Below are positions 287 through 30,360 of a stretch of DNA of 36,714 nt, in pieces (position 1 is the first letter of the stretch; every line of letters begins with the position of its first letter). Both the position numbers and the translations under genes were made by a program. The notes below the pieces were generated by a model. That model ran no database searches and was not told the DNA's origin. It saw only the letters and a list, made by a program, of their open reading frames with translations. This DNA comes from Candidatus Daviesbacteria bacterium (lineage in GTDB: Bacteria > Patescibacteriota > Microgenomatia > Daviesbacterales > UBA10151). Location: NCBI GenBank assembly GCA_016183245.1, contig JACPEY010000027.1:1-36714 (forward strand). Reading direction: 5' to 3'.

Positions 287-395
287 CTGTCATTCTGGAG
301 ACGAACACTTCGACTTCGCTCAGTGTAAACTCCGTGAGGACTCCAGAATCCAGATTCTGGATGCGGTCGCCGAGGCGACCTTACCAGAATGACAG
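287..395. repeat. Palindromic repeat element, intergenic copy
   Basis: The outer arms CTGTCATTCTGG and CCAGAATGACAG are perfect 12-bp inverted repeats. Inner inverted modules include CCAGAATC/GATTCTGG and GGTCGCCGAGGCGACC. The element lies between two minus-strand genes. Read on the plus strand it encodes a peptide containing TPESRFWMRSPRRPYQ, almost the same as the peptide inserted in the polyprenyl synthase at 14002-14085. The element is therefore open in that frame even where it is not part of a gene. The rest of 231-440 shows no gene. Confidence 0.9.
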
Positions 396-440
396 AAGTG
401 GAGTAATTTCAGGATCTACCAGTTGGCAGAAGAACGAGTA

Positions 441-1475
441 TCAGATCTTTTCCCAAAGGCTTAAATCCTCTCCTCCCAACCTCCAGAAAACAAACTGGTA
501 TATTCCGTACTCCCGGGCAATTTTTATTTTATACAAAACACTTTCACTGTCTTCTACCCAGATAACATTTTCTATCCCATTTTCAAAGAAATTTATTACC
601 TGTTCGTAAGAAACTTCATCTCTTTTAAAACCAGCTTCAGTTTTTTTTGCTATATCCTGCACAGTCTGATACTCTACCGGGCTGTTTTTAAATTTATTCC
701 ACTGGTAACCATAAAAAGGCAGGCCGACAACTAATTTTTCCGCGGGGATAATCTTTGCAGTATATTCCAGGACTTGTTTATACTCCTTCACAGGGGTAAT
801 AGGACCAGGATCAGTTTTTATATTGTGGTAATCATAAATCATGACTCTGATAAAGTCAGCGTATTTTGCGATTTGTTTTAAATCCTGGGCTTTAGTGGCA
901 CTCCTGTCACTTAAAGTCCCGCTTTGGGCATGAACACTGACAAAGAGCATTAAACCTTTTTCGTGCAATTTAGCGGCAAAATCACTGATAAATTCCGTGA
1001 AAGACTTTCTATCGTCCGGATTCATTTCCTCAAAATCCAAATCATACCCTTGATAGCCTGCTTCCAAAGCCAGATTTATTAAGTTTTGAATCTGAATTTG
1101 ATAATTTTGCTTATCTTTTAAGAAATCAGAAATTCTTTGGCCGTCAAATTCATTAAAAATAACGGGGATAATTTTTACTCCCTTTTGGGTCAAAAGAGCT
1201 TTAATTTGATCTTTTCTACTATCTTTTATTTCCTCAATTTTCTGCCGGGGGTTTAACTTATACCAGACCGGTGAAACATACGATAATTTAGCTGAAGATG
1301 TGGCCAGAGATTCTAAAACTTTATCCTGGTCCCAGGTCGGAATCCAGGCAGAATAGCTTAAAGGAGATAACTTTTTTTGGGGTTGTATATTTTGACTGTT
1401 AAAATCAAGGGTCTTTATTGCTGCCAAATAACCCAGCACTATCAGTATTCCCAAAGCAGCCAATAATCTGGTCAT
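441..1475 (-). CDS. GH18-type glycoside hydrolase, YaaH-like, membrane-anchored
   Basis: A 344-residue protein with an N-terminal hydrophobic anchor (LLAALGILIVLGYLAAI) and an extracytoplasmic TIM-barrel of the glycoside hydrolase family 18 kind. The active-site strand reads GYDLDFEEM around residues 140-150. The catalytic Glu and the two preceding Asp of DxxDxDxE are present, but the first Asp is replaced by Gln. MIYDYH, PFYGYQW and the C-terminal FWRLGGED match the barrel motifs of YaaH-like cell-wall hydrolases. Probable role: cleavage of beta-1,4-linked aminosugar glycans. The ATG at 1475 is preferred over an upstream TTG because it overlaps the stop of the small membrane ORF (TAATG), which indicates translational coupling. 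It is the last gene of a deacetylase/GT2/small-TM/GH18 operon, so it may trim or release the polymer made by the GT2. Confidence 0.8.
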   Translation of the reverse strand: MTRLLAALGILIVLGYLAAIKTLDFNSQNIQPQKKLSPLSYSAWIPTWDQDKVLESLATSSAKLSYVSPVWYKLNPRQKIEEIKDSRKDQIKALLTQKGVKIIPVIFNEFDGQRISDFLKDKQNYQIQIQNLINLALEAGYQGYDLDFEEMNPDDRKSFTEFISDFAAKLHEKGLMLFVSVHAQSGTLSDRSATKAQDLKQIAKYADFIRVMIYDYHNIKTDPGPITPVKEYKQVLEYTAKIIPAEKLVVGLPFYGYQWNKFKNSPVEYQTVQDIAKKTEAGFKRDEVSYEQVINFFENGIENVIWVEDSESVLYKIKIAREYGIYQFVFWRLGGEDLSLWEKI

Positions 1476-1594
1476 TACCCAATTGTACGCCAAAAGTCTA
1501 GCTTTTTCAGCCGGGATAACAAAAAGCCTGTCACCACGATTAAAAGATGAATTAAAAACAATAAATTTGTAAAAGGCAATCCGATAAAATACAT
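1475..1594 (-). CDS. 39-residue single-TM membrane peptide between GT2 and GH18
   Basis: A small frame, ATG at 1594 to TAA at 1475-1477, encodes 39 residues. One hydrophobic helix (LLFLIHLLIVVTGFLL) is followed by a basic tail SRLKKLDFWRTIG. It starts 4 nt after the GT2 stop, with GGGAG nine nt upstream of the ATG as a ribosome binding site. Its stop overlaps the GH18 start. This tight fit on both sides argues for a real gene. In Pga/Ica systems a small membrane protein (PgaD, IcaD) is encoded beside the processive GT2 and is needed for its activity. A similar accessory role is inferred here from size and position only; no sequence homology is claimed. It is shorter than IcaD and PgaD and has one TM rather than two. 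Confidence 0.6.
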   Translation of the reverse strand: MYFIGLPFTNLLFLIHLLIVVTGFLLSRLKKLDFWRTIG

Positions 1595-1598
1595 ATTT

Positions 1599-6060: not shown

Positions 6061-6275
6061 ATTATATTTAACTTGCATTTTTGACTTTTGAATTTTGATT
6101 TTTGACTTTCTCAATCACCTCATACAATACTATCCCCAAAGACACCATAACATTAAGGCTAATATTGACTCCAAACAACTCTCATGCCCTACAACTAAAC
6201 AGATTGGCAGCTTATATTCAAACTGATCATAAGGAACACTTTTTTTACTCTGCTCTATTGCAATAACCAGCCCCC

Positions 6276-6357
6276 TGTCATTCCGAGTGATTAGCGAGGA
6301 ATCTCCAGATTTGTTTTTAATCTTGAGATCCTTCGTCGAGGACTCCTCAGAATGACA
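6276..6357. repeat. Palindromic repeat element inside the trmH-like gene
   Basis: The arms TGTCATTCCGAG and CTCAGAATGACA are inverted with one mismatch. The element is open in the gene's frame and encodes residues about 108-135 (CHSEESSTKDLKI and onward), between conserved segments of the methyltransferase. Confidence 0.85.
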
Positions 6358-6582
6358 ATTCCATAGACTTCTCACTTTCTTAATGGCTTCAACCGCACTC
6401 TCACAATATTCCCATTCCACCCAATCTGTAGTGTTAATCGAGGCTTTTTTAATCCTGGGATTAGGCGGGATTTCCGTCCCTCCGCAAAGATAAATTTTTT
6501 TGGCAGCTACCGCATCAGCCAACCGGAAGATCGAACCCACATTATAAGTATCCAAAACATTATCTAAAATTATATAGATCTC

Positions 6583-6625
6583 GCTATTGGCTATTGGCTT
6601 TTGGCTATTGGCTTTTGGCTGCGAA
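6583..6625. repeat. Short tandem repeat GCTATTGGCTTTTGG
   Basis: Copies of TATTGGCTTTTGGC follow each other inside the 5' part of the trmH-like gene and encode QPKANSQKPIANSE. The family normally passes directly into the first beta strand here, so this looks like an inserted low-complexity tract. Confidence 0.55.
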
Positions 6626-6662
6626 CCGCTAATAGCTAAGGGCGAATAGCTTCTCAACTGCT

Positions 6663-6715
6663 TTGCATTTAATTTCATGTGTATTATGATATATGAAAAT
6701 GAAGCAATTTGCCAA
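6663..6715. promoter_or_regulatory. Divergent, overlapping leaderless promoters
   Basis: Plus strand: TTGCAT (6663-6668), 16 bp, TATGAT (6685-6690), then 8 nt to the ATG at 6699. Minus strand: TTGGCA (6710-6715), 18 bp, TATCAT (6686-6691), then 7 nt to the ATG at 6678. The two -10 boxes overlap almost completely on opposite strands, so transcription of the two genes may be mutually exclusive. Both mRNAs would lack a leader. Confidence 0.55.
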
Positions 6716-7433
6716 AAGGCACTTGAAAAAACTTATCAAATCAGCCTATTATAAAAAGGTGGACCCCCAACTGCCTGACTCACAAAAACCAACTGTAATA
6801 AATTTCGGAAACAGCTTTTTTGATCAGTTGAAAAATTGGCGCGTTTTTATTCCTACTCTTACTGCTTTAGTCCTGCTGGCTGCTCTTAGCTTTTACCTCT
6901 GGCAGCAGAAAACACCTGTAAAAACTATTCCTGCGCCTGAAAGCAAGCCGCAAGAGACAGCATCCCTATTCCCTCCTCCCACAGATTATCAAAAAGGGCC
7001 ATTTTTGTGTCCAGGTATTCCTCAGTTTTGTCAAACAGGCAAGGATATTTTTATTGAGAAAAGTTATATTGGTTTTGGAAGCAGACTCCCTGCCAAAAGC
7101 CATATTTTTGCCAGCTTTGACGGAGAACTGGCTACATTTAAAGTAGCTATTAACCGGTCTCCTGCTGATAAAAAAACCCAAAATATCCTTGTTTCCACCT
7201 TGACTGACAAAGAACACCTACTCCGGGCTGCGTATTTTTTTACCGGCCAAGCTCCAAAAGACAGGCCTGTTAAAAAAGGCGAGGTCATTGCTACCTCAAG
7301 CGGGGAAACAATGCCGCTATATGATAACTCCTCACTGGTTTTTGTTTTGACCAGAAATGACATTGTTATGGGCAAAAGATTAGGCGGTGAAAGAGTGCAG
7401 CTTAAAAAAGCGGATTTTCAAAAATCTGATTGA
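6699..7433 (+). CDS. Single-TM protein with possible degenerate LytM/M23-like domain
   Basis: A 244-residue protein: a basic cytoplasmic N-terminus (KRHLKKLIKSAYYKK), one TM segment (FIPTLTALVLLAALSFYL, around residues 50-68), a Pro-rich linker and an external domain. The C-terminal PVKKGEVIATSS, then NSSLVFVLTRND, resembles the end of M23/LytM-type beta folds, but the His-x-His and Asp metal ligands are not seen, so any peptidase activity is unlikely. This fold guess is weak. The ATG at 6699 is favoured over 6693 because it lies 8 nt after a -10 box. The stop at 7433 is followed within 3 nt by the start of the next secreted protein, so the two are probably co-transcribed. Confidence 0.55.
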   Translation: MKQFAKRHLKKLIKSAYYKKVDPQLPDSQKPTVINFGNSFFDQLKNWRVFIPTLTALVLLAALSFYLWQQKTPVKTIPAPESKPQETASLFPPPTDYQKGPFLCPGIPQFCQTGKDIFIEKSYIGFGSRLPAKSHIFASFDGELATFKVAINRSPADKKTQNILVSTLTDKEHLLRAAYFFTGQAPKDRPVKKGEVIATSSGETMPLYDNSSLVFVLTRNDIVMGKRLGGERVQLKKADFQKSD

Positions 7434-7435: not shown

Positions 7436-9164
7436 ATGAATTTATATAAACCGGTTCTTATCCTGATCATTTTTTTAGTTTCTTTCCTGCCTTCTCCAGT
7501 TTCAGCCAGCACCTTAAGCAATCAGGTCCCCTGGGGGGCAAGGAATAACTATAATGCTTTTGATGGTTCAGGCTGGGATGCTTTTTTTAATGTCAGTTTC
7601 CCTGATTTTGGGCCGGGGGTGGATATTTATGCAGGAACAGGAGGAACAGCCGGGTCAGGTCCTTATCCTTCCGACCCCGCAGCTTACTTCAATGGTTTTA
7701 CTGCAGGACAAACCATTACCTTTAGAACTACCATTACCAACAGTTCAGGTAATACAGGCAAAGATAATTTCTGGTTTTCTGTATCCAAAGTCATTGCCTG
7801 CCCGGGCTTTAATCTTTCTTCACCAACTTTAACAGAACAAAACCTGTATGACTGCAGTGTAGCCGGAAACAGGATACTAACCAACCAGCAGCTGGTCTTC
7901 TGGTCTCCTTCTTTAACCTACCACCACCCGGGGTGTGCAACCGGCATTGACGGTAAGTTCTGCTTGAATATCTCCAATGCTGCACCAGACAATACTGCCG
8001 CCTTAACCTATACCTGGACACCTACTGAGGCAGGTTATTACCAGTTTGACTTTGGCAGTGATGATTATGGGCATGATTACCCTGGTGCCACAGCCTATGC
8101 AGCCGGCTTTCTCAGGGTCATCCCTGCCCCTCTGCCTCCACCACCACCTCCACCAGAAGGCACTAAAGCCTGTTCTATCACCAGTGTTTCTGCCGGAACT
8201 TCTTCTACCGAATCTTCCATTTCCTACAATGGCTGGGGCAGCACTACCACTGCTGAACCGGTTGGGTTATGGGTGGAGAAAAAAGTAAGTGGAGCTAATC
8301 CGGCCATTAGCCCTGCCCCCCAAGTTAATGGAGTTGAGGTTTTACCAACTATTTCCGGCTCCACATATTATTACCGGCTGGACTCACCCGGAGACTGTAA
8401 TGCCACCAGCACCATTTCCTGTTCTGCTTCCAAGTCTGTGATCTTACCTGTTGGAGAGTACTGGACCCATTGTGACCTTCCTACTAACCCTGCCTCCAAC
8501 CCACCCCTCCTGTTCTGCAGCAGACTTTGCAGAACTGGTTATTGCACCCAACCCTCCTGAAATCACCTCACTTGAGATTGGCAATAATCCTAACCGTGAC
8601 ACATTTACCACCACCTTTGAAGGTTCAGGCAGGCAAACAGGGCTTGAAGGGGGCAAAGGCTGGTATAACCCTATGACTGTTAAATTAAATGCAACCAAAG
8701 GGACTGGTGACATAAAACTTTATGTATCAGCCTTTTATGATAAAAGACAGGGGCAGACTACAGACCAGCAGGCTCTTTCTAATTTAACTGCCATTGAGGG
8801 TCAAATTAATGCAGATCCTGCCATAGGGTTTATGCTGGCTTATGCTGCCCAAAATTGCGCCAACCAAACAGACAATTGTTTAGTGGATAATACAGGATTT
8901 GGTTTTACCATCGGCAATTATTATGCGTTCGTTAAAGGCTCCGGGTGGGTAGATATTAGCAGTGAAATCATCAATGGGTATCCCATATATGACAACCTGG
9001 GTCAATCGATACTGACTGTTTTTCCTGTTTCCAAGGGTAATTATTTTGCCCAATGGAAAGTTAGGTATTATAAAGACTTTGGCAGCAAGAAGATGTATAC
9101 CCCCGGCTTTGTAATTGACAGCAATAATTTAAGCAGCTTCCAATCCGACATCCCCCCTAATTAG
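7436..9164 (+). pseudogene. Large secreted protein of unknown family, interrupted by one frameshift
   Basis: The first part starts at the ATG at 7436 with a clear signal peptide (KPVLILIIFLVSFLPSPVSA). It continues as a beta-rich, Gly/Ser/Thr/Asn-rich protein with paired Cys and a Pro linker (PLPPPPPPPE) near residue 235, and stops at 8560. The plus-one frame, open from before 8451 to 9164, continues the same protein as SCSAADFAELVIAPNPPEI. The second frame has no ATG near its beginning, so the two are one gene with a shift around 8500-8515, in a C-rich run (CCCACCCCTCC). About 570 residues would result. Function is unknown. Exported, Cys-containing, beta-sandwich-like modules suggest a cell-surface role. 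The shift may be a sequencing error in the C run or a genuine lesion. Confidence 0.65.
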
Positions 9165-12406: not shown

Positions 12407-12511
12407 TGTCATTCTGGGGACGAACGTAGTGAGGACTCCAGAATCTGTCTGATCCGTGGATTCTGGACTCGATGACTCGTCTGCAGCCTGCAAAGCGGGC
12501 CCAGAATGACA
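12407..12511. repeat. Palindromic repeat element between convergent genes
   Basis: The arms TGTCATTCTGGG and CCCAGAATGACA are perfect 12-bp inverted repeats. Inner modules CCAGAATC and GATTCTGG are also inverted. It fills most of the gap between the secreted protein (ends 12380) and uppS (ends 12541), where it could also serve as a bidirectional terminator hairpin. Confidence 0.9.
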
Positions 12512-13249: not shown

Positions 13250-13384
13250 TATAAGTCAAAAATTAAAAATTAAAAGTCAAAAGTACAAGTTAAAATTAAA
13301 AAGTTCTACACTTTTAACTTTTCAATTGTAATTTTGTTCTGCCGAAGGCAGTTTGAAAAACATTTTGCATTTTTACTTTTGAAT
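13250..13384. repeat. AT-rich inverted repeat tract (AAAGTCAAAA/TTTTGACTTT family)
   Basis: Runs built from AAAAATTAAAAGTCAAAAGT on one side face TTTTAACTTTTCAATTGTAA and CATTTTTACTTTTGAATTT on the other. The hairpin CTGCCGAAGGCAG (13339-13351) lies between them. The tract fills the gap between uppS and the polyprenyl synthase. It belongs to a second dispersed family also seen at 6061-6115, 15696-15815, 16865-16948 and 27955-27998. Confidence 0.6.
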
Positions 13385-14281
13385 TTACTTAATCCTTTTA
13401 ACTAAATACTCTCCCATCTGTTCTAATAATTTACTCATATTCTCATCTTTAGTTATATCTGATAATAAGTTCAATGCCTGTTTTGTATATTTTTCTGCGG
13501 CTTTTCCGGCCGACTCTAACTTTTCAATATTATCTGTTTCATTATCTAAAATATCGTCCCTGATTTGATAAGCTATTCCCAATTTTTCCCCAAACTGCCC
13601 AAATATCCTAATCTTTTCCTCGTTTGCGCCGGCTAAAATTGCTCCAAGTTGTAAAGGCCCGGCAATAGTATAGCAGGCGGTTTTAAATTTCATCACAATA
13701 AGCGGATCAGTATCCTCCAAATCCAACAATTCCCCCCAGGCAGTATTCATCATAATCTGAGAAAATAATTTAAGGGCAGAAATTTTATAATCTGTAGGGA
13801 AATCACTTTCTGAAATCAGCTTAAAACTTAAGAAAAAACCATAATCTGCTAAACTGATGGCCTGAGAGAGAGCGTAATGATTCCCTCCCAAAGCCTGATG
13901 CAAAGCAGGCTGGTCACGGCGCAAAGGACTTTGATCAATAATATCATCGTGAATCAAAACTGCGCTGTGGAGTATTTCATAAGCTGCCGCAACTTTATAA
14001 ATGTCATCCTGGTAAGGTCGCCTTGGCGACCGCATCCAGGATCTAGATTCTGGAGTCGTCGCTTCCGCTCCTCCCCAGAATGACATTCCTAACTGGTATC
14101 CCAAAACCACCAAAGCCCCCCTAATCCTCTTCCCTCCCCGGCATGATTTAATAAAAGCGAAAAGAAGAGGCACCAGCTTTTTATCAATTTCTCCGGCCTC
14201 ATTTAGTTGCTTATTTAAAATTCTTTCTATCTCTTTGTCTGTTGCTTTGACAGACTCTTTCAGATACTTTTCAAAATCCAC
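13385..14281 (-). CDS. Trans-polyprenyl diphosphate synthase (IspA/GGPPS family) with in-frame repeat insertion
   Basis: 298 residues from a GTG start. It condenses DMAPP or allylic diphosphates with IPP and supplies the primer for UppS. Both Asp-rich motifs are present: DDIID in ILHSAVLIHDDIIDQSPLRR and DDILD in AYQIRDDILDNE. SCRGGKRIRG is the conserved IPP-binding region. Residues about 66-94 (WGGAEATTPESRSWMRSPRR) are encoded by a palindromic repeat element. They fall between an N-terminal helix and the helix before the first DDxxD, where homologues have a short loop. Chain length cannot be read reliably. The gene is divergent from HMG-CoA reductase, with a shared 143-bp regulatory gap. 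TAAATT lies 6 nt before the GTG, consistent with a leaderless mRNA. Confidence 0.88.
   Translation of the reverse strand: MDFEKYLKESVKATDKEIERILNKQLNEAGEIDKKLVPLLFAFIKSCRGGKRIRGALVVLGYQLGMSFWGGAEATTPESRSWMRSPRRPYQDDIYKVAAAYEILHSAVLIHDDIIDQSPLRRDQPALHQALGGNHYALSQAISLADYGFFLSFKLISESDFPTDYKISALKLFSQIMMNTAWGELLDLEDTDPLIVMKFKTACYTIAGPLQLGAILAGANEEKIRIFGQFGEKLGIAYQIRDDILDNETDNIEKLESAGKAAEKYTKQALNLLSDITKDENMSKLLEQMGEYLVKRIK
14002..14085. repeat. Palindromic repeat element inside the polyprenyl synthase gene
   Basis: Arms TGTCATCCTGG and CCAGAATGACA (one mismatch), with inner GGTCGCCTTGGCGACC. The element is open in the minus-strand frame used by the gene. Its peptide TPESRSWMRSPRRPYQ nearly equals the one potentially encoded by the intergenic copy at 287-395. 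Confidence 0.9.
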
Positions 14282-14424: not shown

Positions 14425-15726
14425 ATGAAGAACAAATTATCTTTACGCGACTTTCCCTCAGCGCAAAAAAGGCGTGAATTTTTGGAAACAGAATTGAATA
14501 TCAAACTGGATAATGTTGGATGTTTTAGTTTTACAGAAGACCAGGCTGTTGGCCGCAACATCGAAAACCTGATTGGAGCCACCCAGATCCCGTTAGGAAT
14601 AGCAGGCCCATTATTAATCCATTCTTCTGTCATCCTGAGGGAGTCTTCGACCGAAGGATCTCTGACGAATGTCAGAATCTCAAACAAGTCTTCGACCCTG
14701 AGGCTCAGACCCGAAGGGTTGAGAGATTCTTCGCTTGTCGCTCAGAATGACAGAACAGGAAAAAAATATTATCTCCCTCTAGCCACTACCGAGGGAGCGC
14801 TCGTTGCTTCTGCCTCCCGGGGGTGCAAAGCTATCAATCAATCAGGCGGAGCGGAAGTCTTGGTAGAAGAAGTCGGGGTAACACGCGGGCCTGTTTTTAA
14901 AGTTAAGGGTATCAGGGAAGGCATACAGATTAAACAGTGGATCAAAGACCATTTTGCTGATTTGGCCAAAGTTGCAGAGACAACTTCCCATCACTTACGC
15001 TTAAAAAAAATGGGCTGCAGGTTAGTAGGCAGAAACTTATTTGCCCGTTTTTATTATGATTGCCAAGATGCCATGGGCATGAATATGGCCACCATTGCTA
15101 CAGAGCAGGCAGTAAGTTTGATTGAACAGGGAACCGAAGCCAGATGTATTTCAATTGCCGGCAATTTTGATATTGATAAAAAACCCGGCTGGTTAAACTT
15201 TATCTCAGGCAGAGGCAAAAGGGTTTGGGCAGAAAGCGTTTTGAAAAAAGAAATTGTCAAATCAGTTTTAAAAACTACACCGGAAAAAATAGCTGAAGTT
15301 GTATATAGAAAATGCCAAATCGGCTCTGCCATGGCAGGTTCTTTAGGGTTTAATGCTCATTTTGCCAATGTGGTGGCAGCTGTTTTTGCAGCCACCGGCC
15401 AGGATTTAGCGCACGTTGCAGAAGGAAGTCTAGGCATAACTACTGCAGAAGTTTTGACAAACGGCGACCTTTATTTTTCAATCTATTTACCTTCTTTAAT
15501 GTGCGGTACTGTAGGCGGCGGAACACACCTGCCTGCCCAACAGGAAGCTTTATCTATTATGGGTGTTAAAGGGACCGGAGATAGTGTAAAATATGCCCAA
15601 ATTTTGGGATCTGCTATACTGGCGGTGGAAGTTTCCCTGATGGCCTCTCTGGCAGAAGGGTCATTGGCAAAAGCACACCAGAAACTAGGAAGAGGTCAAA
15701 AGTCAAAAATCAAAACTCAAAAGTAA
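14425..15726 (+). CDS. Hydroxymethylglutaryl-CoA reductase (class I-like) with in-frame repeat insertion
   Basis: 433 residues. It reduces HMG-CoA to mevalonate with NAD(P)H. ENLIGATQIPLGIAGP and LATTEGALVAS (catalytic Glu) lie in the N-terminal part. DAMGMNMAT is the cofactor motif, GRGKRVWAE has the catalytic Lys, GQDLAHVAEG the Asp, GTVGGGTHLP is conserved, and SLAKAHQKLGRG has the C-terminal catalytic His, so the active-site set is complete. Residues about 71-110 are encoded by a palindromic element. They replace the short loop between IAGPLL and the YYLPLATTEG strand. The last residues (GQKSKIKTQK) come from an AT-rich repeat tract. It is the first gene of the group with HMG-CoA synthase, thiolase and DUF35. 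Soluble: no membrane segments. Confidence 0.92.
   Translation: MKNKLSLRDFPSAQKRREFLETELNIKLDNVGCFSFTEDQAVGRNIENLIGATQIPLGIAGPLLIHSSVILRESSTEGSLTNVRISNKSSTLRLRPEGLRDSSLVAQNDRTGKKYYLPLATTEGALVASASRGCKAINQSGGAEVLVEEVGVTRGPVFKVKGIREGIQIKQWIKDHFADLAKVAETTSHHLRLKKMGCRLVGRNLFARFYYDCQDAMGMNMATIATEQAVSLIEQGTEARCISIAGNFDIDKKPGWLNFISGRGKRVWAESVLKKEIVKSVLKTTPEKIAEVVYRKCQIGSAMAGSLGFNAHFANVVAAVFAATGQDLAHVAEGSLGITTAEVLTNGDLYFSIYLPSLMCGTVGGGTHLPAQQEALSIMGVKGTGDSVKYAQILGSAILAVEVSLMASLAEGSLAKAHQKLGRGQKSKIKTQK
14636..14754. repeat. Palindromic repeat element inside HMG-CoA reductase
   Basis: Arms TCTGTCATCCTGAG and CTCAGAATGACAGA (one mismatch), with the inner hairpin TCTGACGAATGTCAGA. The whole 119-bp element is open in the plus-strand frame of the gene and adds about 40 Ser/Arg/Glu-rich residues. 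Confidence 0.92.
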
Positions 15727-15815: not shown

Positions 15816-15823
15816 AATTAATC

Positions 15824-16864: not shown

Positions 16865-16948
16865 AGTTAAAAGTCAAAGGTTAAAAGTCAAAAGTATAGA
16901 AGTTTTCTTTGAAAACTTTTTAATTTTAACTTGAAATTTTGAATTAAA
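16865..16948. repeat. AT-rich hairpin tract between HMG-CoA synthase and thiolase
   Basis: Repeated AGTTAAAAGTCAAA units face TTTTTAATTTTAACTT. Inside, GAAGTTTTC-TTT-GAAAACTTTTT forms a stem followed by a T run that looks like a terminator. It could attenuate read-through into the thiolase gene. Confidence 0.55.
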
Positions 16949-16951: not shown

Positions 16952-18071
16952 ATGCATATCAAAGTAGCCGGTATTGGACTGACAAAATTCGGAGAACTCT
17001 GGGACAAATCTTTACTTGATTTGGCCCTGGAAGCATCAAGAGACGCTATTGCCGATTCGCAACTGGCTACCAGCCAAATTGATGCGGTTTTTGTAGGCAA
17101 TATGTTAATCGGCAAAATTGCCGGACAGGACCACTTAGGCCCGGTAATTGCATCATCTTTAGGGCTAAATTGTGCATCTTTCCGGATAGAAGGAGCTTGT
17201 GCTTCCGGGGGTTTGGCAATACACCTGGCAATCCAGGGCATTTTAGCCGGCACTTATAAAAACGTCCTGGTGGTGGGAGCAGAAAAAATGACAGATGCCC
17301 CGGCCAGTCAAATCACCTGGGCTTTAATGGGTGCTTCCTCCTCAAAAGAAAGAAAAGCAGGGCTGACTTTTCCTGCACTTTACGCTTTAATGACCCAGGC
17401 TCATATGCAAAAATACGGCACTACCCGGGAACAACTGGCTGAGGTATCAGTTAAAAATCATTATCACGCAACTTTTAACAAAAAAGCTCAATACCCGTTT
17501 GAAATCACCCCGGAGAAAGTCTTAAACAGCAGCCTAATCTCTTACCCGATTACCCTGTTTGACTCTTCCCCCAGTAATCCTGTCGGCAGACAGCAACACC
17601 AAAGGTGTGTATATCACGGGCAGCGCTGTTGCCTCTGATACAATTGACCTGGCGCAAAGGAAAAGTCTAACAGAGCTAAAAGCTACCCAAATCGCTTCCA
17701 AAAAAGCCCTGGAGCAGGCAGGGGTGGAAATTTCTGATATTAAAGTTGCAGAAGTTCACGATTGCTTTAGTATTGCAGAAATTATGGCTATGGAAGACCT
17801 GGGCTTTTGTCCCAAAGGCGAGGGAGGCAAATTTATTGCAGGAAAAAATACCAAACTGGGAGGCAAATGCCCGGTCAATACCTCAGGAGGACTTAAGGCG
17901 TGCGGACATCCGGTTGGGGCAACCGGTGTCAAACAAATTATTGAAATAACGGAACAGCTGCGGAAAAATGCCGGCACAAGACAAGTCAAAGATGCAAATA
18001 TCGGGTTGGCCCACAATGTCGGAGGCACCGGGGCAACAGTAGTAGTTCATGTTTTACAAAATTATGAGTAG
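16952..18071 (+). pseudogene. Acetyl-CoA acetyltransferase (thiolase), archaeal SCPx-type, frameshifted
   Basis: The enzyme would make acetoacetyl-CoA from two acetyl-CoA. The N-terminal part has IEGACASGGLAIH with the nucleophile Cys and VVGAEKMTD. The C-terminal part has VAEVHDCFSIAE, LKACGHPVGATG (His and Cys region) and GLAHNVGGTG. The first frame ends at 17638 after FDSSP. The second frame, open from about 17559, picks up with VILSADSNTKGVYI. The conserved VTDGAAA-like segment that should join them is absent. A deletion of about 20 bp near 17572, not a multiple of three, explains this. As written, the gene gives only a truncated product, although both halves keep good conservation. This could be a recent lesion or an assembly error. 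The gene overlaps the DUF35 gene by 8 nt. Confidence 0.85.
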
Positions 18072-18431: not shown

Positions 18432-19430
18432 ATGAGTAAGCAAATCATTGTTTCCGCTCCAGGCAAAATTCACCTTTTAGGAGAACATTTTGTGGTGTAC
18501 TTTGCACCGGCTATACTTGCTACCGTTGATCTAAGAACGACAGTTACAATCGCACGATGTCATTCTGGGGACTCCGACATTTTGTCGGAGGACACCAGAA
18601 TCTATTCAGGTAAGGATTCTGGACAGGCTCGCCTCGTCTCCGACGAGTCGGAGCGGGCCAGAATGACAGAAATAGTTGAACCTATCATCAAAAAACATCT
18701 TAAGATCAAAACCATTCCGCCTTATAAACTGGAGATCTCTTCCCAAATCCCCATTGGCGCAGGACTGGGATCATCTGCTGCAATTTCCGCTGCCTGCATT
18801 GCAGCCCTACTCTCTTTTCTAAAAGTTAAATGGGACTTGAACTTAATCAACAGCCTCACTTATGAGGCGGAAAAAGTCTTCCATGGCAACCCTTCCGGCG
18901 GTGATAATTCAACTATCACCTTTGGAAGTATCATTAGGTTTATCCGCGAGCCAAAAACCATCAAACCTTTAGGGATTAATATCCCGGAAAGGCTGGCCCA
19001 GAATTTTGTTTTAATAAATACCGGGAAACCCAAAAAATCAACCGGGGAAATGGTTTCTCTTGTCAAAGTTCTGCGCGAGAAAAACCCGCAGCTTTTTAAT
19101 GAGTCATTAAAAAGTCAAACTGAACTTGCAGAAAAACTTTTACCGGTATTAAAAAGCGGTGACAGCAGCAAGTTTATTAAAATAATCAGGCTGGGAGAAA
19201 AAAACCTGGAAGCAATCGGGGTAGTTTCCAAAACTTCTCAAAAAATTATCAGAAAGATTGAAAAAGCAGGCGGTGCAGCCAAAATATGCGGAGCCGGATC
19301 AACAACAGGCCCGACAGGAATCATCCTTGCCTACCACCCGGACAAAACAAAGGTAGAAAAAATTGCCAGGTCTTACAAACTCCCCTATTTTAGTACTACC
19401 CTGGGGGTTGAAGGAGTCAGACAGGAATAG
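18432..19430 (+). CDS. Mevalonate kinase (GHMP family) with in-frame repeat insertion
   Basis: 332 residues. It phosphorylates mevalonate at the 5-hydroxyl with ATP. VSAPGKIHLLGEH is GHMP motif 1, IPIGAGLGSSAAISAA the ATP-binding motif 2, and AKICGAGSTTGPTG motif 3. HGNPSGGDNSTITFG is the specific mevalonate-kinase signature with the catalytic Asp. Residues 43-79 are encoded by a palindromic element of exactly 111 bp, between the first beta strands and the helix before motif 2, where homologues have a variable loop. The start is 12 nt after the DUF35-downstream element, close to the operator-like 30-bp site. No Shine-Dalgarno sequence was found. Confidence 0.88.
   Translation: MSKQIIVSAPGKIHLLGEHFVVYFAPAILATVDLRTTVTIARCHSGDSDILSEDTRIYSGKDSGQARLVSDESERARMTEIVEPIIKKHLKIKTIPPYKLEISSQIPIGAGLGSSAAISAACIAALLSFLKVKWDLNLINSLTYEAEKVFHGNPSGGDNSTITFGSIIRFIREPKTIKPLGINIPERLAQNFVLINTGKPKKSTGEMVSLVKVLREKNPQLFNESLKSQTELAEKLLPVLKSGDSSKFIKIIRLGEKNLEAIGVVSKTSQKIIRKIEKAGGAAKICGAGSTTGPTGIILAYHPDKTKVEKIARSYKLPYFSTTLGVEGVRQE
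18558..18668. repeat. Palindromic repeat element (111 bp) inside mevalonate kinase
   Basis: Perfect 11-bp arms TGTCATTCTGG and CCAGAATGACA. Nested modules are CTCCGACATTTTGTCGGAG and GGCTCGCCTCGTCTCCGACG, the latter shared with the ATPase gene and sufB. The length is a multiple of three and the frame stays open. Confidence 0.93.
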
Positions 19431-21963: not shown

Positions 21964-22309
21964 TACAAATCATTTCATAGGTCTTACCAACAGAGCACCA
22001 GAAGTTGAGACAGAGATACTAGACGAACAAAAAGGATTTATCTCTACTCTATCCTGCCATATATTATTTTACGTAAATAAAATAGCTGTTCCTGATAAAA
22101 AGATGGATTCTTTTATCAGTGATTTTAATTTGATAAATCTAAGCCACGATATTTTAAATAAAGCTTTAATCGGACCAACAAAAGATCTGGAAGATAATAT
22201 TCAACTCCACAGCGCAGCACAAGCAGATTGTGATATTTTCTTAACCTATGATGCCGGATTGCTTAAACTTAAATTTTTTGGTAAAACAGAAATCAAATCT
22301 CAGTTATGA
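21944..22309 (+). CDS. PIN-domain toxin (VapC-like), probably altered active site
   Basis: 121 residues. VFLDTNHFIGLT at the N-terminus has the first catalytic Asp, LEDNIQLHSAAQADCDIFL and TYDAGLL hold the later acidic residues. This is the PIN ribonuclease fold. The Glu usually found in the second helix (around SCHILFYVNKI) is not visible, so activity could be reduced. The stop overlaps the ATG of the next gene, the phosphomevalonate-kinase-like GHMP kinase, by 4 nt (ATGA). The toxin is therefore translationally coupled to a metabolic gene. Confidence 0.72.
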   Translation: MARVFLDTNHFIGLTNRAPEVETEILDEQKGFISTLSCHILFYVNKIAVPDKKMDSFISDFNLINLSHDILNKALIGPTKDLEDNIQLHSAAQADCDIFLTYDAGLLKLKFFGKTEIKSQL

Positions 22310-23349
22310 AAAAAATTACTGTTTCAGCTCCGGGGAAATTAATGCTTTTTGGTGAACATGCTGTTGTTTACGGCAGACCTTGCATTGTGACAGCTGTAGG
22401 GCAGCGCATGAGGGCTACTGTAGAGCTTTTGGATAAGCCGGTATTTGAGCTTGAAGCTCCTGATGTTAAAGTGACAGGTTATAAAAAGCCAATGGATCAA
22501 TTAGGGGTTGACGACATTCCCAAAGGGGCTAAATTTGTGGAGATGGCGGTCAAGAATTTCATGGAGAATGTCATTCTGGGGAACGAAGTGACTCCAGAAT
22601 CAGCTCGATCCGTGGATTCTGGACGCGGTCGCCATGGCGACCTTGCCAGAATGACAGGAATCAGTATTACCACCCAATCAGAATTTTCTTCCCAATTCGG
22701 GTTTGGCTCCTCTTCTGCCTCAACAGTATGCGTTATTAAAGCTATATCAGAAATTACCGGCGCCAATTTAGACAACAGAGCTATTTTTGATCTGGCGTAC
22801 AAAACAGTTTTAGATATTCAGGGCAAAGGGTCGGGCTTTGATGTGGCCGCGGCAGTTTACGGAGGAACTTTGTACTACATTACACCCGGCAAAACCATCG
22901 AACCCTTAAATATTGAATCGCTTCCCTTAATTGTTGGTTATTCCGGCATTAAAGCAGACACAGTTACCTTAATGAATCAGGTTTCAGAATTGGCCCAGGA
23001 AAATCCCCAGATGGTAGAAGATATCTACAATAATATTGGAAAGTTGGTAGAGCAAGCTAAAGTAGCTATCTTGAGTAAAGATTGGACTACCTTAGGTGAG
23101 CTCATGAATTCTAACCAGAAGCTGCTGGAAAACCTCGGAGTAAGCATCGAAAAGTTCGATAATATGATTTTAGGCGCTAAAGCGGCTGGAGCATATGGGG
23201 CAAAACTGTCCGGTGCCGGCGGCGGCGACTGCATGATTGCCTTATCCCCTGAAGAAAAAACTCAGGCTGTCAAAGACGGGATCACTTCCGCCGGCGGGCA
23301 GGTAATAGAAGTTGAAGCAAGCGTCCAAGGTGCTAGAATCGAGGACTAG
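22306..23349 (+). CDS. GHMP kinase, probably phosphomevalonate kinase, with in-frame repeat insertion
   Basis: 347 residues. VSAPGKLMLFGEHAVVYG is GHMP motif 1, FGFGSSSASTVCVI motif 2, and GAKLSGAGGGDCMIAL motif 3. KGSGFDVAAAVYGG resembles phosphomevalonate kinases rather than mevalonate kinase, which is already supplied by 18432-19430. It would turn mevalonate 5-phosphate into the 5-diphosphate. A second mevalonate kinase cannot be excluded from sequence alone. Residues about 88-117 (GNEVTPESARSVDSGRGRHG and onward) are encoded by a palindromic element between VKNFM and the ISITTQSEF strand. The 4-nt overlap with the toxin stop suggests coupling. A separate repeat follows the stop. Confidence 0.8.
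   Translation: MKKITVSAPGKLMLFGEHAVVYGRPCIVTAVGQRMRATVELLDKPVFELEAPDVKVTGYKKPMDQLGVDDIPKGAKFVEMAVKNFMENVILGNEVTPESARSVDSGRGRHGDLARMTGISITTQSEFSSQFGFGSSSASTVCVIKAISEITGANLDNRAIFDLAYKTVLDIQGKGSGFDVAAAVYGGTLYYITPGKTIEPLNIESLPLIVGYSGIKADTVTLMNQVSELAQENPQMVEDIYNNIGKLVEQAKVAILSKDWTTLGELMNSNQKLLENLGVSIEKFDNMILGAKAAGAYGAKLSGAGGGDCMIALSPEEKTQAVKDGITSAGGQVIEVEASVQGARIED
22569..22656. repeat. Palindromic repeat element inside the PMK-like kinase gene
   Basis: Perfect 11-bp arms TGTCATTCTGG and CCAGAATGACA, with inner CCAGAATC/GATTCTGG and GGTCGCCATGGCGACC. It is open in the plus-strand frame. The reading frame differs from that used in the polyprenyl synthase. Confidence 0.92.
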
Positions 23350-23355: not shown

Positions 23356-23447
23356 TGTCATTGCGAGGAGGGAGTCTTCGACCGACGTGGCAATCTACCA
23401 CCGCGGAAGATTGCTTCCCCCGGACTTGATCCGGGGTCGCAATGACA
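23356..23447. repeat. Palindromic repeat element (TCATTGCGA subtype) before the Nudix gene
   Basis: Left arm TGTCATTGCGA and right arm TCGCAATGACA are perfectly inverted. Inner CCCCCGGACTTGATCCGGGG is a further hairpin. It fills the gap between PMK and the Nudix gene. This subtype also occurs at 26609-26689. Confidence 0.9.
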
Positions 23448-26596: not shown

Positions 26597-26608
26597 AATC
26601 CGACCTAA

Positions 26609-26689
26609 GTCATTGCGAGGAGGGAGTATGACGACCGACGAAGCAATCTAGATTGGAGCTAGATTGCTTCGCTAATCGCTCGCAATGAC
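26609..26689. repeat. Palindromic repeat element that supplies the 3' end of sufS
   Basis: Arms GTCATTGCGAG and CTCGCAATGAC are perfect. Inner GAAGCAATCTAG and CTAGATTGCTTC are also inverted. The last codons of sufS and its TAG stop (26659-26661) lie inside the element. The C-terminal peptide SLRAISEAI is encoded by it. Confidence 0.9.
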
Positions 26690-27999
26690 GTTACTAATTT
26701 ATCTACATCCTCCAGATTATTATAAATATAAAAACTAATTCTCACAGAAGATTTAACCCCCAATCTTTGATGAAGCGGCATGGCACAATGAGAACCGGCC
26801 CGTACTGCAATCCCGTCTTGATCCAGCAGACTGGCCACATCATGCGGATGGACCCCCGCCAGATTAAATGAAATAATGCCACCGCGCTTTTGAATCTCTA
26901 AAGGGCCATAAATATTCAACCCTTGCACTTTTTGCAGCTTTTCCAAAGCATATTCTGTCAAAGATTTTTCATGCTCTCTTACTTTATCCATTCCCAGCTT
27001 TTGCAAATAATCAATAGCTGCCCCAAACCCAATTACCCCTTCTATATTAGGTGTTCCGGCTTCAAATTTTTGAGGGCTGTCCAGATATTGGACCTCTTTT
27101 AGACTTACTTTGCTAACCATCCCGCCGCCTGTTAAAAATGGAGATAAACTTTGAGCAATACTTTTCCTCATCCAAAGCACGCCTACTCCGGAAGGGCCTA
27201 ACATTTTATGGGCGGAGAATGCATAAAAATCACAACCCAACTTTTTAACATCAACTTTCATATGCGGTACAGCCTGGGCTCCGTCTATTAAAACCAGAGC
27301 ACCGGCCTGGTGAGCTTTTTTAGTAATCTCTTCAACCGGATTAATTGTCCCCAAAACATTCGACACATGCGTAATCGCCACCAAATCTACTCCTTTCAGT
27401 TTTTTATCCAAGCCAGACAAGTCCAATTCCCCTTCTTTATTTATATCCAAAAAGTCCATTTTTGATTTTTGCTCTTTGATATTTGATATTACTATCTGCC
27501 ACGGCACTAAATTACTATGATGCTCCATGACTGAAACTAAAATTTTGCCATTTTTTTTGTCATCCTGAGCCCGAAGGGCGAAGGATCTCCCACGAATGTG
27601 GGCCTCAAATAAATTGGGAGATTCCTCGCTTCGCCCGCCTCTGGCGTGGCTTCGCTCGGAATGACAATAGCGAAGGGTTTTTGCTACTAAATTTATGCTC
27701 TCTGTAGTATTTTTGGTAAAAATAATTTCTTCCCTTTCAGCATTAATTAACTTAGCCGCTTTATCCCTGACTTCCTCATACTTCCGGGTAGCCTCCTCAG
27801 ATTCCCAATAAATCCCCCTGTGCACATTAGCTGAGTATTGTTCATAAAAATCAGTCACAGCCTTAATTACCTGTTTAGGTTTCAAAGAAGTCGAAGCAGA
27901 ATCAAAATAAATTAATTTCCTGCTGCTCTTCCTTAATATGGGAAAGTCATCTTTCCTACCATATTTTTGACTTTTGACTTTTGAATTTTGACTTTTCAT
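26659..27999 (-). CDS. sufS: Cysteine desulfurase SufS with in-frame repeat insertion
   Basis: 446 residues, about 40 more than usual. A PLP enzyme that takes sulfur from cysteine for Fe-S assembly. IYFDSASTSLKPKQV, ANVHRGIYWES, SAHKMLGPSGVG (PLP Lys) and RAGSHCAMPLHQRLG (catalytic Cys) are all intact. Residues about 112-148 (CHSERSHARGGRSEE and onward) come from a palindromic element between INLVAKTLR and KILVSVMEHHSNLVPW. The first 13 residues (MKSQNSKVKSQKY) look like translation of the AT-rich repeat family. The C-terminus ends inside another palindromic element. The start overlaps the sufB stop by 4 nt. Confidence 0.92.
   Translation of the reverse strand: MKSQNSKVKSQKYGRKDDFPILRKSSRKLIYFDSASTSLKPKQVIKAVTDFYEQYSANVHRGIYWESEEATRKYEEVRDKAAKLINAEREEIIFTKNTTESINLVAKTLRYCHSERSHARGGRSEESPNLFEAHIRGRSFALRAQDDKKNGKILVSVMEHHSNLVPWQIVISNIKEQKSKMDFLDINKEGELDLSGLDKKLKGVDLVAITHVSNVLGTINPVEEITKKAHQAGALVLIDGAQAVPHMKVDVKKLGCDFYAFSAHKMLGPSGVGVLWMRKSIAQSLSPFLTGGGMVSKVSLKEVQYLDSPQKFEAGTPNIEGVIGFGAAIDYLQKLGMDKVREHEKSLTEYALEKLQKVQGLNIYGPLEIQKRGGIISFNLAGVHPHDVASLLDQDGIAVRAGSHCAMPLHQRLGVKSSVRISFYIYNNLEDVDKLVTSLRAISEAI
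27558..27666. repeat. Palindromic repeat element inside sufS
   Basis: Arms TGTCATCCTGAGC and GCTCGGAATGACA (two mismatches), with inner CCACGAATGTGGG. It is open in the minus-strand frame of the gene. Confidence 0.9.
27955..27998. repeat. AT-rich repeat unit at the sufS start
   Basis: TTTTTGACTTTTGACTTTTG and following TTTGACTTTT units cover the first codons of sufS. It is a half-copy of the AT-rich family. Confidence 0.55.
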
Positions 28000-29348
28000 G
28001 CCGCTCCTTCCATTTCCAGCCTGATCAGTTGATTCAGTTCAATGGCATATTCCATAGGCAATTCGCGAACCAAAGGCTTGATAAAACCATTAACTATCAT
28101 AGCTTCAGCTTCTTCCTTTTCTATCCCTCTGCTTTGCAGGTAAAAAATTTGTTCTTCTGAAATTTTAGAGATCGTAGCCTCATGCGACAACTCACAGTTA
28201 GCACCAATGGCAGAAATTGCCGGGTAGGTTTCCGATTTGGACCTCTCGTCCATGATTAAGGCCTGGCAAATGGTTTTGGATTTAACATCTTTGACCCCGG
28301 GTGCAATTTTTACCAAACCCCGGTAAGAGGTTTTGCCGCCATGGTGGCTGATAGATTTAGACCTAATTACCGATGAGGTTTTAGACGCAAGATGGATCGC
28401 TTTGCCACCGGTGTCTTGAACCTGTCCGGCCCCGGCCATGGCCAAAGAAAGCATATCTACTTTAGCACCACGGCCCACCAATAATGCTGAAGGGTATTTC
28501 ATAGTCAGCTTTGACCCATTATTAAAATCCACCCACTCCATTACCCCATTTTCTTCCACTTTAGCTCTTTTGGTCACCAGGTTATAGACATTTTTGGACC
28601 AGTTTTGCACTGTGGTGTAGCGGACTCGGGCTCCATGTTTGACAATAATCTCCACCACTCCGGCATGCAAAGAGTCTGTGGTATATACCGGAGAAGTACA
28701 GCCTTCAATGTAGTGCACAAAACTACCGCGATCAGCAATGATTAAAGTCCTTTCAAATTGACCAATATTTTTGGCATTGATCCGAAAATATGCCTGAAGG
28801 GGCAGAGAAATGGAAACTTTGGGCGGTACATAAATAAAACACCCCCCTGACCAGACTGCACTATTTAAAGAGGCAAATTTGTTATCATTTATTGGTATCA
28901 CGGTACCAAAATACTCTTTAACCAGCTCAGGATATTGCTGCAACCCTTCATCCATGCTTAAAAACACCACTCCCTGCTCTTTTAGGTCTTTTAGAAGCGA
29001 TCCATAGACCATTTCGCTGTCCCACTGGGCAGAAACTCCTGCTAAAAACTTTTGTTCTGCTTTGGGAATTCCCAATTTGTCATAAGTTCTTTTAATCTCT
29101 TTTGGCACATCTTTCCAGGCATGTTTCACTCCATTGCCGGATTTAATAAAATAGTGGATTTTATCAAAATCCAATCCGGACAAATCCCCGCCAAAAGCTG
29201 GCTCGCCTCGCTGAGCGGGCGAAGCGGGCATGGGAGCCTTTTGAAAGTATTCCAATGCCTGTAATCGGAGTTTTGTCATCCAGAAAGGATCTTTTTTATA
29301 AACAGAAACCTCTTCAACTATTTGCTTGCTTAAACCCTTAGTCATCAT
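27996..29348 (-). CDS. sufB: SufB, Fe-S cluster scaffold subunit
   Basis: 450 residues, normal size. SufB forms a complex with the ATPase SufC. The core shows SVSAQWDSEMVYG-like GVSAQWDSEMVYG, SAVWSGGCFIYVPP, FVHYIEGCTSP, HHGGKTSYRGLV and the C-terminal ELSHEATISKISEEQIFYL. No separate SufD follows, so a SufB-SufB homodimer with SufC is likely. Residues about 40-50 (ASPAQRGEPAF) interrupt the usual PMP-W-G-DLSGLDF stretch and match a short palindromic module. The start ATG at 29348 has GGGAG 7 nt upstream. It is 4 nt-overlapped by sufS. Confidence 0.93.
   Translation of the reverse strand: MMTKGLSKQIVEEVSVYKKDPFWMTKLRLQALEYFQKAPMPASPAQRGEPAFGGDLSGLDFDKIHYFIKSGNGVKHAWKDVPKEIKRTYDKLGIPKAEQKFLAGVSAQWDSEMVYGSLLKDLKEQGVVFLSMDEGLQQYPELVKEYFGTVIPINDNKFASLNSAVWSGGCFIYVPPKVSISLPLQAYFRINAKNIGQFERTLIIADRGSFVHYIEGCTSPVYTTDSLHAGVVEIIVKHGARVRYTTVQNWSKNVYNLVTKRAKVEENGVMEWVDFNNGSKLTMKYPSALLVGRGAKVDMLSLAMAGAGQVQDTGGKAIHLASKTSSVIRSKSISHHGGKTSYRGLVKIAPGVKDVKSKTICQALIMDERSKSETYPAISAIGANCELSHEATISKISEEQIFYLQSRGIEKEEAEAMIVNGFIKPLVRELPMEYAIELNQLIRLEMEGAA
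29201..29229. repeat. Short palindromic module inside sufB
   Basis: GCTCGCCTCG and GAAGCGGGC flank a short centre. It is the same unit as in the ATPase gene (5306-5345) and in the mevalonate kinase element. Confidence 0.7.
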
Positions 29349-29364
29349 TTCATTACTCCCTTTC

Positions 29365-29444
29365 TGTCATTCTGGTAAGCGAGTCATCGAGCGCATCCAG
29401 AATCTGATTCTGGACTCCTCACTACGTTCGTCCCCAGAATGACA
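29365..29444. repeat. Palindromic repeat element between sufC and sufB
   Basis: Perfect 11-bp arms TGTCATTCTGG and CCAGAATGACA, with inner CCAGAATC/GATTCTGG. It fills most of the 107-bp gap and could form an mRNA hairpin between the two cistrons. Confidence 0.92.
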
Positions 29445-29455
29445 TTTGAAATAAT

Positions 29456-30250
29456 CTATATTCCCGCATAACCTTTTTCCTCAATTTCTCTTGCCAGTTT
29501 GACCTGACCGGATTTAACAATTCTCCCCTCTTTCAGAACATGGACTACATTTGGTTTGACATATTTTAAAATTTTTTGATTATGGGTAATCAGCAGTACA
29601 CCAGTTCCCTTTTTTACTAGTTGATTAACCACTTCAGCTGCCTTTTTTAAAGTATCTACATCCAAACCTGAATCAATTTCATCCAAAATCACAAATTTTG
29701 GCTGGAGACTTAACAGCATCAAAAGCTCTGCCTTTTTCTTCTCTCCCCCGGAAAAGCCGTCATTTATAAAGCGCTCCAGCATTTCCTCTTTTAATCCCAT
29801 ATTTTTGGCCTGCTTTTTAACAGTTTCATAAAACTCCCTGATATCAGCTTTGCCATCGCCTGTAATACTTTTATAGGAAGACCAAATTAACTGCCCTAAA
29901 CTCACTCCAGGCACAGCCACCGGATTTTGGAAAGATAAAAATAAGCCTAATTTTGCTCTTTCATTAGGTTTTAAACTGAGTAAATTTTTTCCACCCAGCT
30001 CTACTGAACCGGAAACCGCCTGATAAGCCGGATGGCCCATCAAAACCAAAGCCAAAGAAGACTTGCCAGACCCGTTCGGCCCCATCAAAGCATGTACTTC
30101 CCCGCTCTTAACTGTTAAATTAACCCCGAAAACCACCCTCTTCCCTCGCCTCGCCGACTTGTCCACCGGAGCTTCAGCGAAGGTGGAAGCTTCATGCGAA
30201 GACGGGTCAACCTCAACTGATAACCCTTTAACCTCAAAATTACTCTTCAT
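29456..30250 (-). CDS. sufC: SufC, ABC-type ATPase of the SUF complex, with in-frame insertion
   Basis: 264 residues. Walker A is GPNGSGKSS, the signature is FSGGEKKKAELL, Walker B is FVILDEIDSGLD and the switch His is in LLITHN. It energises the SufB scaffold. About 20 residues near 15-35 (PSSHEASTFAEAPVDKSARR) are inserted between LSVEVD and GKRVVFGV. They are encoded by a repeat module with inverted CCACC/GGTGG. The insertion lies in the first beta hairpin, away from the nucleotide site. TAAAAT lies 7 nt before the ATG at 30250, consistent with leaderless transcription. It is the first gene of the suf operon. Confidence 0.92.
   Translation of the reverse strand: MKSNFEVKGLSVEVDPSSHEASTFAEAPVDKSARRGKRVVFGVNLTVKSGEVHALMGPNGSGKSSLALVLMGHPAYQAVSGSVELGGKNLLSLKPNERAKLGLFLSFQNPVAVPGVSLGQLIWSSYKSITGDGKADIREFYETVKKQAKNMGLKEEMLERFINDGFSGGEKKKAELLMLLSLQPKFVILDEIDSGLDVDTLKKAAEVVNQLVKKGTGVLLITHNQKILKYVKPNVVHVLKEGRIVKSGQVKLAREIEEKGYAGI
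30146..30207. repeat. Repeat module inside sufC
   Basis: Contains GTCCACCGGAGCTTCAGCGA and AGGTGGAAGCTTC, with inverted CCACC and GGTGG. About 60 bp, GC-rich and in frame. Confidence 0.7.
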
Positions 30251-30257
30251 CCCGCAA

Positions 30258-30263
30258 ATTTTA
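30258..30263 (-). promoter_or_regulatory. -10 box of the suf operon
   Basis: TAAAAT on the minus strand, 7 nt before the sufC ATG. No good -35 is visible, so the call is moderate. Confidence 0.45.
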
Positions 30264-30299
30264 CCATCTGAAGCCTCAAAAAGCTAAATTTCCACTCTC

Positions 30300-30360
30300 T
30301 GTCATTACGAGAAGGGAGTCTTCGGCCGGTGAAGCAATTCAATATATTTTCGTCATTATG
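30300..30360. repeat. Truncated palindromic repeat (left half)
   Basis: TGTCATTACGAGAAGGGAGT and the following TCTTCGGCCGGTGAAGCAAT match the TCATTGCGA subtype at 23356 and 26609, but the right arm is missing and the end is replaced by CGTCATTATG. It looks like a degraded copy. Confidence 0.65.

Follow-up and report, generated by a model that had tools for sequence, protein, structure and literature searches.

The window analysed here, contig JACPEY010000027.1 (36,714 nucleotides, nt) of a Candidatus Daviesbacteria bacterium (assembly GCA_016183245.1), carries a set of short palindromic elements that lie between genes and also, in the host reading frame, inside genes for conserved enzymes. 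The genome is a 1.08-Mb Daviesbacteria-like Patescibacteria draft in 73 contigs. It is very probable that these elements are non-autonomous palindromic dimers resembling repetitive extragenic palindromes (REPs), that they have spread in several classes and that they survive in gaps between genes or in frame in flexible protein loops, the same loops being refilled in different species.

Elements and host genes in the window

The features are listed by window position; lines without a sign are unstranded, and ORF stands for open reading frame.

288..394: REP-like dimer, TTCTGG class, intergenic (arms 11/11 at both ends; fold z -5.8)
6130..6678 (-): TrmH/SpoU methylase gene, host; conserved C-terminal motif in another frame (Pfam SpoU_methylase 5.6e-15; tail frames)
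6276..6357 (-): element in frame in TrmH, TTCTGA/TTCCGA arms (arms; open host frame)
12407..12511: TTCTGG-class element, intergenic (arms, fold, flanking ORFs)
13385..14281 (-): polyprenyl synthase, host (Pfam 9.6e-42)
14002..14085 (-): element in frame in polyprenyl synthase (open host frame; orthologue comparison)
14425..15726 (+): HMG-CoA reductase, host (Pfam 4.9e-119)
14628..14752 (+): element in frame in HMG-CoA reductase, residues 68-109 (open host frame; orthologues; model)
18432..19430 (+): mevalonate kinase, host (TIGR00549 above cut-off)
18558..18668 (+): element in frame in mevalonate kinase (open host frame; orthologues)
22306..23349 (+): second mevalonate-kinase-like GHMP kinase, host (TIGR00549 208 bits; fold 6mde)
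22569..22656 (+): element in frame in second GHMP kinase, residues 88-116 (open host frame; orthologues; model)
23356..23447: sister-class element GTCATTGCGAG, intergenic, 7 and 8 nt to flanking genes (arms; flanking ORFs)
26608..26690: sister-class element GTCATTGCGAG, overlapping the 3' end of the sufS frame (arms; flanking ORFs)
26659..27999 (-): SufS cysteine desulfurase, host (TIGR01979 1.6e-162)
27558..27666 (-): element in frame in SufS (open host frame; single homologue in reach, without insert)
29365..29444: TTCTGG-class element between sufB and sufC (arms, fold, flanking ORFs)
30300..30340: probable single or decayed half-element, GTCATTRCGAG class (direct reading)

The arms are present above the chance level. 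With up to two mismatches, TGTCATTCTGG matches the window 24 times against 10.1 expected, a number reached in none of 100 shuffles, and with up to one mismatch it matches the genome 126 times against 16 for the same pattern read backwards. Inverted pairs of arms form the elements, which are 80-125 nt long in the window. On direct reading, each half-unit consists of TGTC, ATTCTGG, a loop and CCAGAATC; the second half mirrors the first, and the tags face outward. Nine palindromes belong to the TTCTGG/TTCTGA class, and in folding all nine beat every one of 200 shuffles (z -3.3 to -6.8). The two copies at 23356 and 26609 are of a sister class, GTCATTGCGAG...CTCGCAATGAC, so that the single arm class assumed for all sites in the preliminary description holds for the nine paired elements and not for these two. 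Rfam, at its gathering scores, gave no match in the window.

Six copies are internal to genes, all in the frame of the host gene and without a stop, and all six hosts are recognised by Pfam; together with the arm counts and the folding, this bears out the original observation of repeats both between genes and in frame within six of them. Five of the six hosts look intact. In TrmH the copy is likewise in frame, but the gene makes a weak example of a host: the sequence that we take to be the conserved end of TrmH, here SLNVMVSLGIVLYE, lies downstream, in another frame, so that either the gene or its sequence has a defect separate from the element. Two details are corrected here. The element in HMG-CoA reductase starts at 14628 rather than 14636, and the gene first labelled as PMK (phosphomevalonate kinase) encodes a protein for which only mevalonate kinase exceeds the NCBIfam cut-off (TIGR00549, 208 versus 163 bits) and whose model is nearest to mevalonate kinases (6mde; template modelling score, TM, 0.79/0.90).

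Two host proteins were modelled from 25-row alignments. In HMG-CoA reductase (mean predicted local distance difference test, pLDDT, 79.4), residues 74-109 fall below 50, between strands 57-72 and 113-120; other low stretches lie at both ends and at 47-52. In the second GHMP kinase (mean pLDDT 88.3), the sole stretch below 50 is residues 95-113, between helix 73-90 and strand 118-125. Intragenic inserts taken as a set contain 14.7% Ser against 6.5% in their hosts, and Phe, Tyr and Trp are scarce. Because of these low-confidence loops and the Ser-rich, aromatic-poor composition, the inserts presumably lie at the protein surface, and the proposal that they are tolerated in loops agrees with both models.

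Copies across the genome and reuse of the same loops

To the window we added 35 stretches of the same genome picked for arm hits, giving a non-random sample of 379,185 bases. It contains 68 arm-paired elements; the detector seeks pairs of arms, and single units fall outside its count. Of the 68, 30 occupy in-frame positions within 26 proteins, all of which match Pfam; this fraction is no genome-wide rate because the stretches were chosen for their arms. These 30 remained from 40 element-and-frame rows after removal of nine second frames or unsupported short ORFs and of L035:563-1384. The full-genome arm search called for at the outset finds the elements far beyond the window. Hosts beyond the window six are NusG, ribosomal protein L1, RecF, CarB, DNA ligase, UvrA, two glycosyltransferases, TopA, ValRS, CysRS, DnaX, LeuRS, PolA, ATP synthase gamma (AtpG), RecG, CCA transferase, a GTPase, a Mur ligase and an aminopeptidase. 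For some of them (RecF, UvrA, ValRS, TopA and others) the name is our reading of a broader Pfam match. UvrA, CarB, RecG and one of the two glycosyltransferases contain two elements each. The NusG element lies in an N-terminal extension, and that of the GTPase 17 residues from the C-terminus. The aminopeptidase gene at L035:1-1384 has an in-frame element (125-235) and a frame-stopping one (760-853), and a ribosomal L4 gene (L024:7167-8081), outside the 30, has an in-frame element lengthening each end (7210-7305 and 7949-8060).

Outside long in-frame genes lie 37 of the 68 elements, eight of them at most 20 nt from both adjacent ORFs, some overlapping ORF ends. Among the 17 ORFs around nine non-genic elements, none proved to be part of a split gene: at eight sites the two sides belong to different families, and at the ninth one side is unmatched.

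It is true, as first noted, that the same DNA is read on different strands and in different frames, but 21 of the 30 intragenic copies share one left phase (phase 2, x-Val-Ile-Leu), with seven in phase 0 and two in phase 1; the right arm has a stop in one phase. The 15 non-genic TTCTGG-class copies have 2.0 of six frames open against 2.06 in dinucleotide shuffles, and the 38 copies classed as non-genic (all classes; one later found in frame) have 1.18 against 1.72. Copies between genes thus do not exceed shuffles in openness: the elements are not designed for coding, and the idea that they are tuned to stay open in several frames was rejected. Selection acting once a copy has inserted is the better explanation for the open frames of internal copies.

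For UvrA, CarB, ribosomal protein L1, LeuRS, HMG-CoA reductase, polyprenyl synthase and the two mevalonate kinases, most orthologues lack the insert while their flanks align. The comparison covered 12 rows for UvrA (11 genomes), 12 each for CarB and L1, eight for LeuRS and, for HMG-CoA reductase, 12 of the 20 family genomes with a match. Palindrome-free rows occur at every site of UvrA, CarB, L1 and LeuRS, and the mitochondrial carbamoyl-phosphate synthase chain 5dot aligns over CarB site 1 without an insert. None of ten polyprenyl synthase rows has a paired palindrome, and some have other, longer loops. Among the 12 genomes compared for HMG-CoA reductase, two have inserts encoded by palindromes, the window genome and G015, and these inserts differ from one another; the loop of G005 is longer and of a different kind, and the remaining genomes have short loops. 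These alignments speak for insertion into loops rather than family ancestry, and the parallel first drawn with spreading palindromes in the conserved genes of Rickettsia gains from them.

Outside the window genome, the orthologue rows of the eight hosts contain 20 paired elements, of which 12 occupy the same loop as the window genome's copy and eight lie elsewhere. The same-loop elements are three of four in UvrA, three of five in CarB, the only one in HMG-CoA reductase, both in mevalonate kinase (L061 and L063) and three of four in the second GHMP kinase (L059, L064 and L066); ten of the 12 differ in their arms from the copy in the window genome. In the HMG-CoA reductase set at least one species is represented by two rows, and none of the 20 elements is counted twice. 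A reversed-sequence control, which also included the window genome's genes (10 elements), gave two elements in the eight gene sets. At UvrA site 2, G000, G041 and G033 have elements of the TTCTGG, TTCTGA and TTGCGA classes, respectively, in the same place and reading phase. The carriers of an element at CarB 458 (again G000, G033 and G041) are non-sisters: in a tree of UvrA, CarB and L1, G033 groups with G037 (support 0.94) and G041 with G038 (1.00), deeper nodes being weak. Because both tree partners, G037 and G038, are palindrome-free at CarB site 1, independent entries are the simplest reading. More same-site or neighbouring-site pairs occur in TopA, AtpG, PolA, DNA ligase and the aminopeptidase, and in other species some of these loops hold tandem repeats, often with a 7-nt unit (AATTTTC, GTCGTCA; by eye). 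The scale over the genome and the way in which, in other species, different classes keep occupying the same loops are the strongest points beyond the preliminary description.

In the relatives, 15 of 18 elements of G037 (one, L281:2129, seemingly upstream of the start codon), 11 of 17 in G033 and two of four in G041 lie in long open frames, the measure here being the open frame alone; one of the G033 elements is a chance match in native ValRS sequence, and that genome is therefore counted as 10 of 16. At least one exact arm is found in 26 of 45 family genomes (maximum 67), and at least five in four of 116 genomes across the phylum (67, 39, 27 and 8). Two exact patterns had no match in viral_contigs, and the 67-nt CarB element had none in phage records.

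Proposed spread and retention, and alternative explanations

We propose the following course of events. Elements made of two inverted half-units, each with a TGTC tag followed by an ATTCTGG...CCAGAAT stem and with the tags at the outer ends, would probably insert blindly with respect to genes. The survivors would be the copies that do no harm, lying in intergenic gaps or in frame and stop-free in flexible surface loops, where selection probably retains them. Translation of internal copies would give the protein a hydrophilic peptide some 20-45 residues long. As few loops per protein would be tolerant, the same loops would be refilled in different species by different classes.

Several observations weigh against this proposal. 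The orthologue elements in L1 (three) and LeuRS (one) are never at the loop used in the window genome. There is no constant insertion footprint, the intragenic lengths modulo 3 being 1, 2 and 0 in 15, 10 and 5 cases, and although the comparison with relatives confirmed that most lack the insert, the insertion edges cannot be fixed to a single base because the relatives' loops differ. Blind insertion alone does not predict the left-phase bias. Two arm-rich distant genomes have fewer elements in frame in long ORFs (3/18 and 6/15) than G037. Not every host is intact, since L035:760-853 stops its frame in the aminopeptidase gene and TrmH is damaged elsewhere.

Same-site elements shared by G033 and G037 bear on a possible movement of the elements. 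Those in CarB (66/66 nt), ValRS (64/65) and the aminopeptidase (64/65) are nearly identical, whereas their 60-nt flanks are 69-83% identical and host DNA about 75%; identity falls at the element edges. The best of 8,127 66-nt host windows in the four element-sharing genes reaches 95.5%, against 100, 98.5 and 97% for the elements, compared codon-wise. Across the 12 genus genomes, the next best match to the CarB element stands at 85% identity. The two genomes share a fourth element, in a membrane protein, which is 81% identical overall and in which one hairpin has been exchanged, and a fifth same-site pair, at the second aminopeptidase site, is only 65% identical. In DNA ligase, the non-sisters G037 and G041 share 53/55 positions at slightly different places, and seven pairs between G000 and other species, at the same or a neighbouring site, are 52-60% identical. 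The shared element in the apparent membrane protein (L276/L298) is read in a hydrophobic phase (LSFWLVQNRFW...), unlike most copies.

Neutral descent does not account for the near-identical elements. The element may have moved recently by itself, insertions may have occurred in parallel, or almost every base may be under constraint; we rate movement as the likeliest of these without claiming it. A homing-like spread, in which whole elements would pass from one related species to another and enter the same permissive protein loops anew, is a tentative suggestion.

Somewhat more doubtful is the view that RAYT-type (REP-associated; Y1, HUH) tyrosine transposases of the host move the elements, as is thought for REP doublets forming hairpins (REPINs). 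The window's genome has three matches to PF01797 (Y1 transposase) and 41 of 45 family genomes have such matches, whose number shows a weak rank correlation with the exact-arm count over the 45 genomes (rho 0.35, p 0.018, kinship ignored). The REP-like plan with outward tags also fits, and the available excerpts on REPIN/RAYT systems (PMC3116915, PMC2817692) describe the same combination of an inverted pair of tagged palindromes with Y1 transposase genes in the genome. However, of the 46 PF01797 matches in the genus, 40 (from 11 of 12 genomes; G038 excluded) were read with about 1.5 kb around each, and there are six arm-like matches (at most one mismatch), in five loci and none paired, against 11 in 10 loci for the reversed control. 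If a RAYT mobilised the elements as REPINs, its gene would be flanked by the same REP; none of the 40 loci is flanked by a paired element, and element-flanked transposase genes were accordingly rejected as a candidate. Several transposase-rich genomes also have few exact arms (12 matches and one arm in G025; nine and none in G012).

It is improbable that the palindromes are kept because the peptide or an RNA hairpin functions, in regulation or partner binding, beyond being tolerated. The identity of the three G033/G037 elements (97-100%), above that of the best host window, and the strong preference for one left phase would suit such a function, but elsewhere the same loop holds unrelated palindromes, short tandem repeats or nothing, the hosts are unrelated proteins, and the seven G000 pairs are far from identical. 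Assembly chimeras, with repeats misjoined into genes, are very improbable. The draft is in 73 contigs, and its thiolase, alcohol dehydrogenase and TrmH genes look frameshifted, but the frame is kept on both sides in 30 cases, separately assembled genomes have elements at the same loops, some on long contigs (G037 C1, 770 kb), and for the CarB 557 element the 12 genus genomes contain no other copy that is nearly identical. That the residues are native to the protein families and the DNA palindrome coincidental is scarcely credible in spite of the chance ValRS match, as the residues are missing in most orthologues and in 5dot, the same DNA is also intergenic and the reversed control is so low.

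Relation to known palindromic repeats and minor observations

Rickettsia palindromic elements (RPEs) were reportedly described by Ogata et al. in 2000 and 2002. According to the available excerpts of PMC10969869, they are likewise short palindromes, of more than one sequence family, between and inside genes and in frame in unrelated genes, as are 30 of our 68. Compared by description rather than by sequence, the present elements differ in belonging to Patescibacteria, in their nested two-half plan with TGTC tags and in that different classes occupy one loop in different species.

The CGTC-tagged REPs of Di Nocera et al. 2013 (PMC3733652) form a second comparison. As far as the excerpts of that paper go, their tag is CGTC, often TGTC, the stem opens with A-T pairs and they are mostly inverted dimers; intragenic GTAG and CGTC REPs encode 20-30 residues, including in uvrA and in DNA polymerase I, DNA ligase and tRNA synthetase genes; the CGTC type has no dedicated transposase and is listed for five phyla, Patescibacteria not among them. 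Here too the arms begin with TGTCATT, some with CGTCATT (the superfamily admits the variants TGTC and CCTC), the 68 elements are inverted dimers with outward tags, and intragenic copies lie in similar genes. The stem, ATTCTGG/CCAGAAT on direct reading, has 7-8 bp and starts with A-T, against 8-9 bp with A-T in the first and second positions in the superfamily. The absence of element-flanked transposases from the 40 loci agrees with the lack of a dedicated transposase. In contrast, CGTC REPs have 4-5-nt loops and a CCA tail and are mostly intergenic, whereas here most loops exceed that length and contain inner hairpins (in the short forms, one half has a loop of 5 nt), the tail is not CCA and 30 of the 68 sampled elements are intragenic. 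For different REPs at about the same site, the excerpts give a single case, recB of two Xanthomonas, as against several genes here.

Intragenic REPs and RPEs are known already (PMC3733652, PMC10969869, as excerpted), and among the open-licence papers listed, taken by titles and beginnings of abstracts, none describes such elements in Patescibacteria. As far as that literature reaches, the lineage, the core-gene scale, the reuse of one loop by different classes and the near-identical shared elements are new. So far, discussion of protein-coding palindromes has centred on Rickettsia and some REP-rich bacteria; here they lie in core replication, translation and isoprenoid enzymes of a reduced-genome lineage. 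The related species form a natural insertion experiment on loops that tolerate about 30 extra residues, on the gain of peptides by old proteins from mobile DNA and on the spread of elements that lack a transposase of their own, and the near-identical shared elements make palindrome travel directly testable. A practical consequence is that domain models and phylogenies of these bacteria can go astray where such inserts are present.

The window also contains tandem arrays of 7-nt units (TTTTGAC, GCTATTG and others) at 6079-6109, 6583-6620, 13258-13302, 15695-15724, 15788-15819, 16863-16895 and 27965-27996, both intergenic and coding (the N-termini of TrmH and SufS and the C-terminus of HMG-CoA reductase); similar tandem repeats occur in relatives within loops where the window genome has palindromes. 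A thiolase-like gene extends over two overlapping frames (16952-18071), a frameshift of the gene or of the assembly, and so does an alcohol-dehydrogenase-like gene (35813-36533). Finally, SufC (29456-30250) has extra residues at about 15-37, in its N-terminal region, and SufB (27996-29348) the extra residues PASPAQRGEPAFGG near its N-terminus; by eye, both resemble translated repeats of other kinds.

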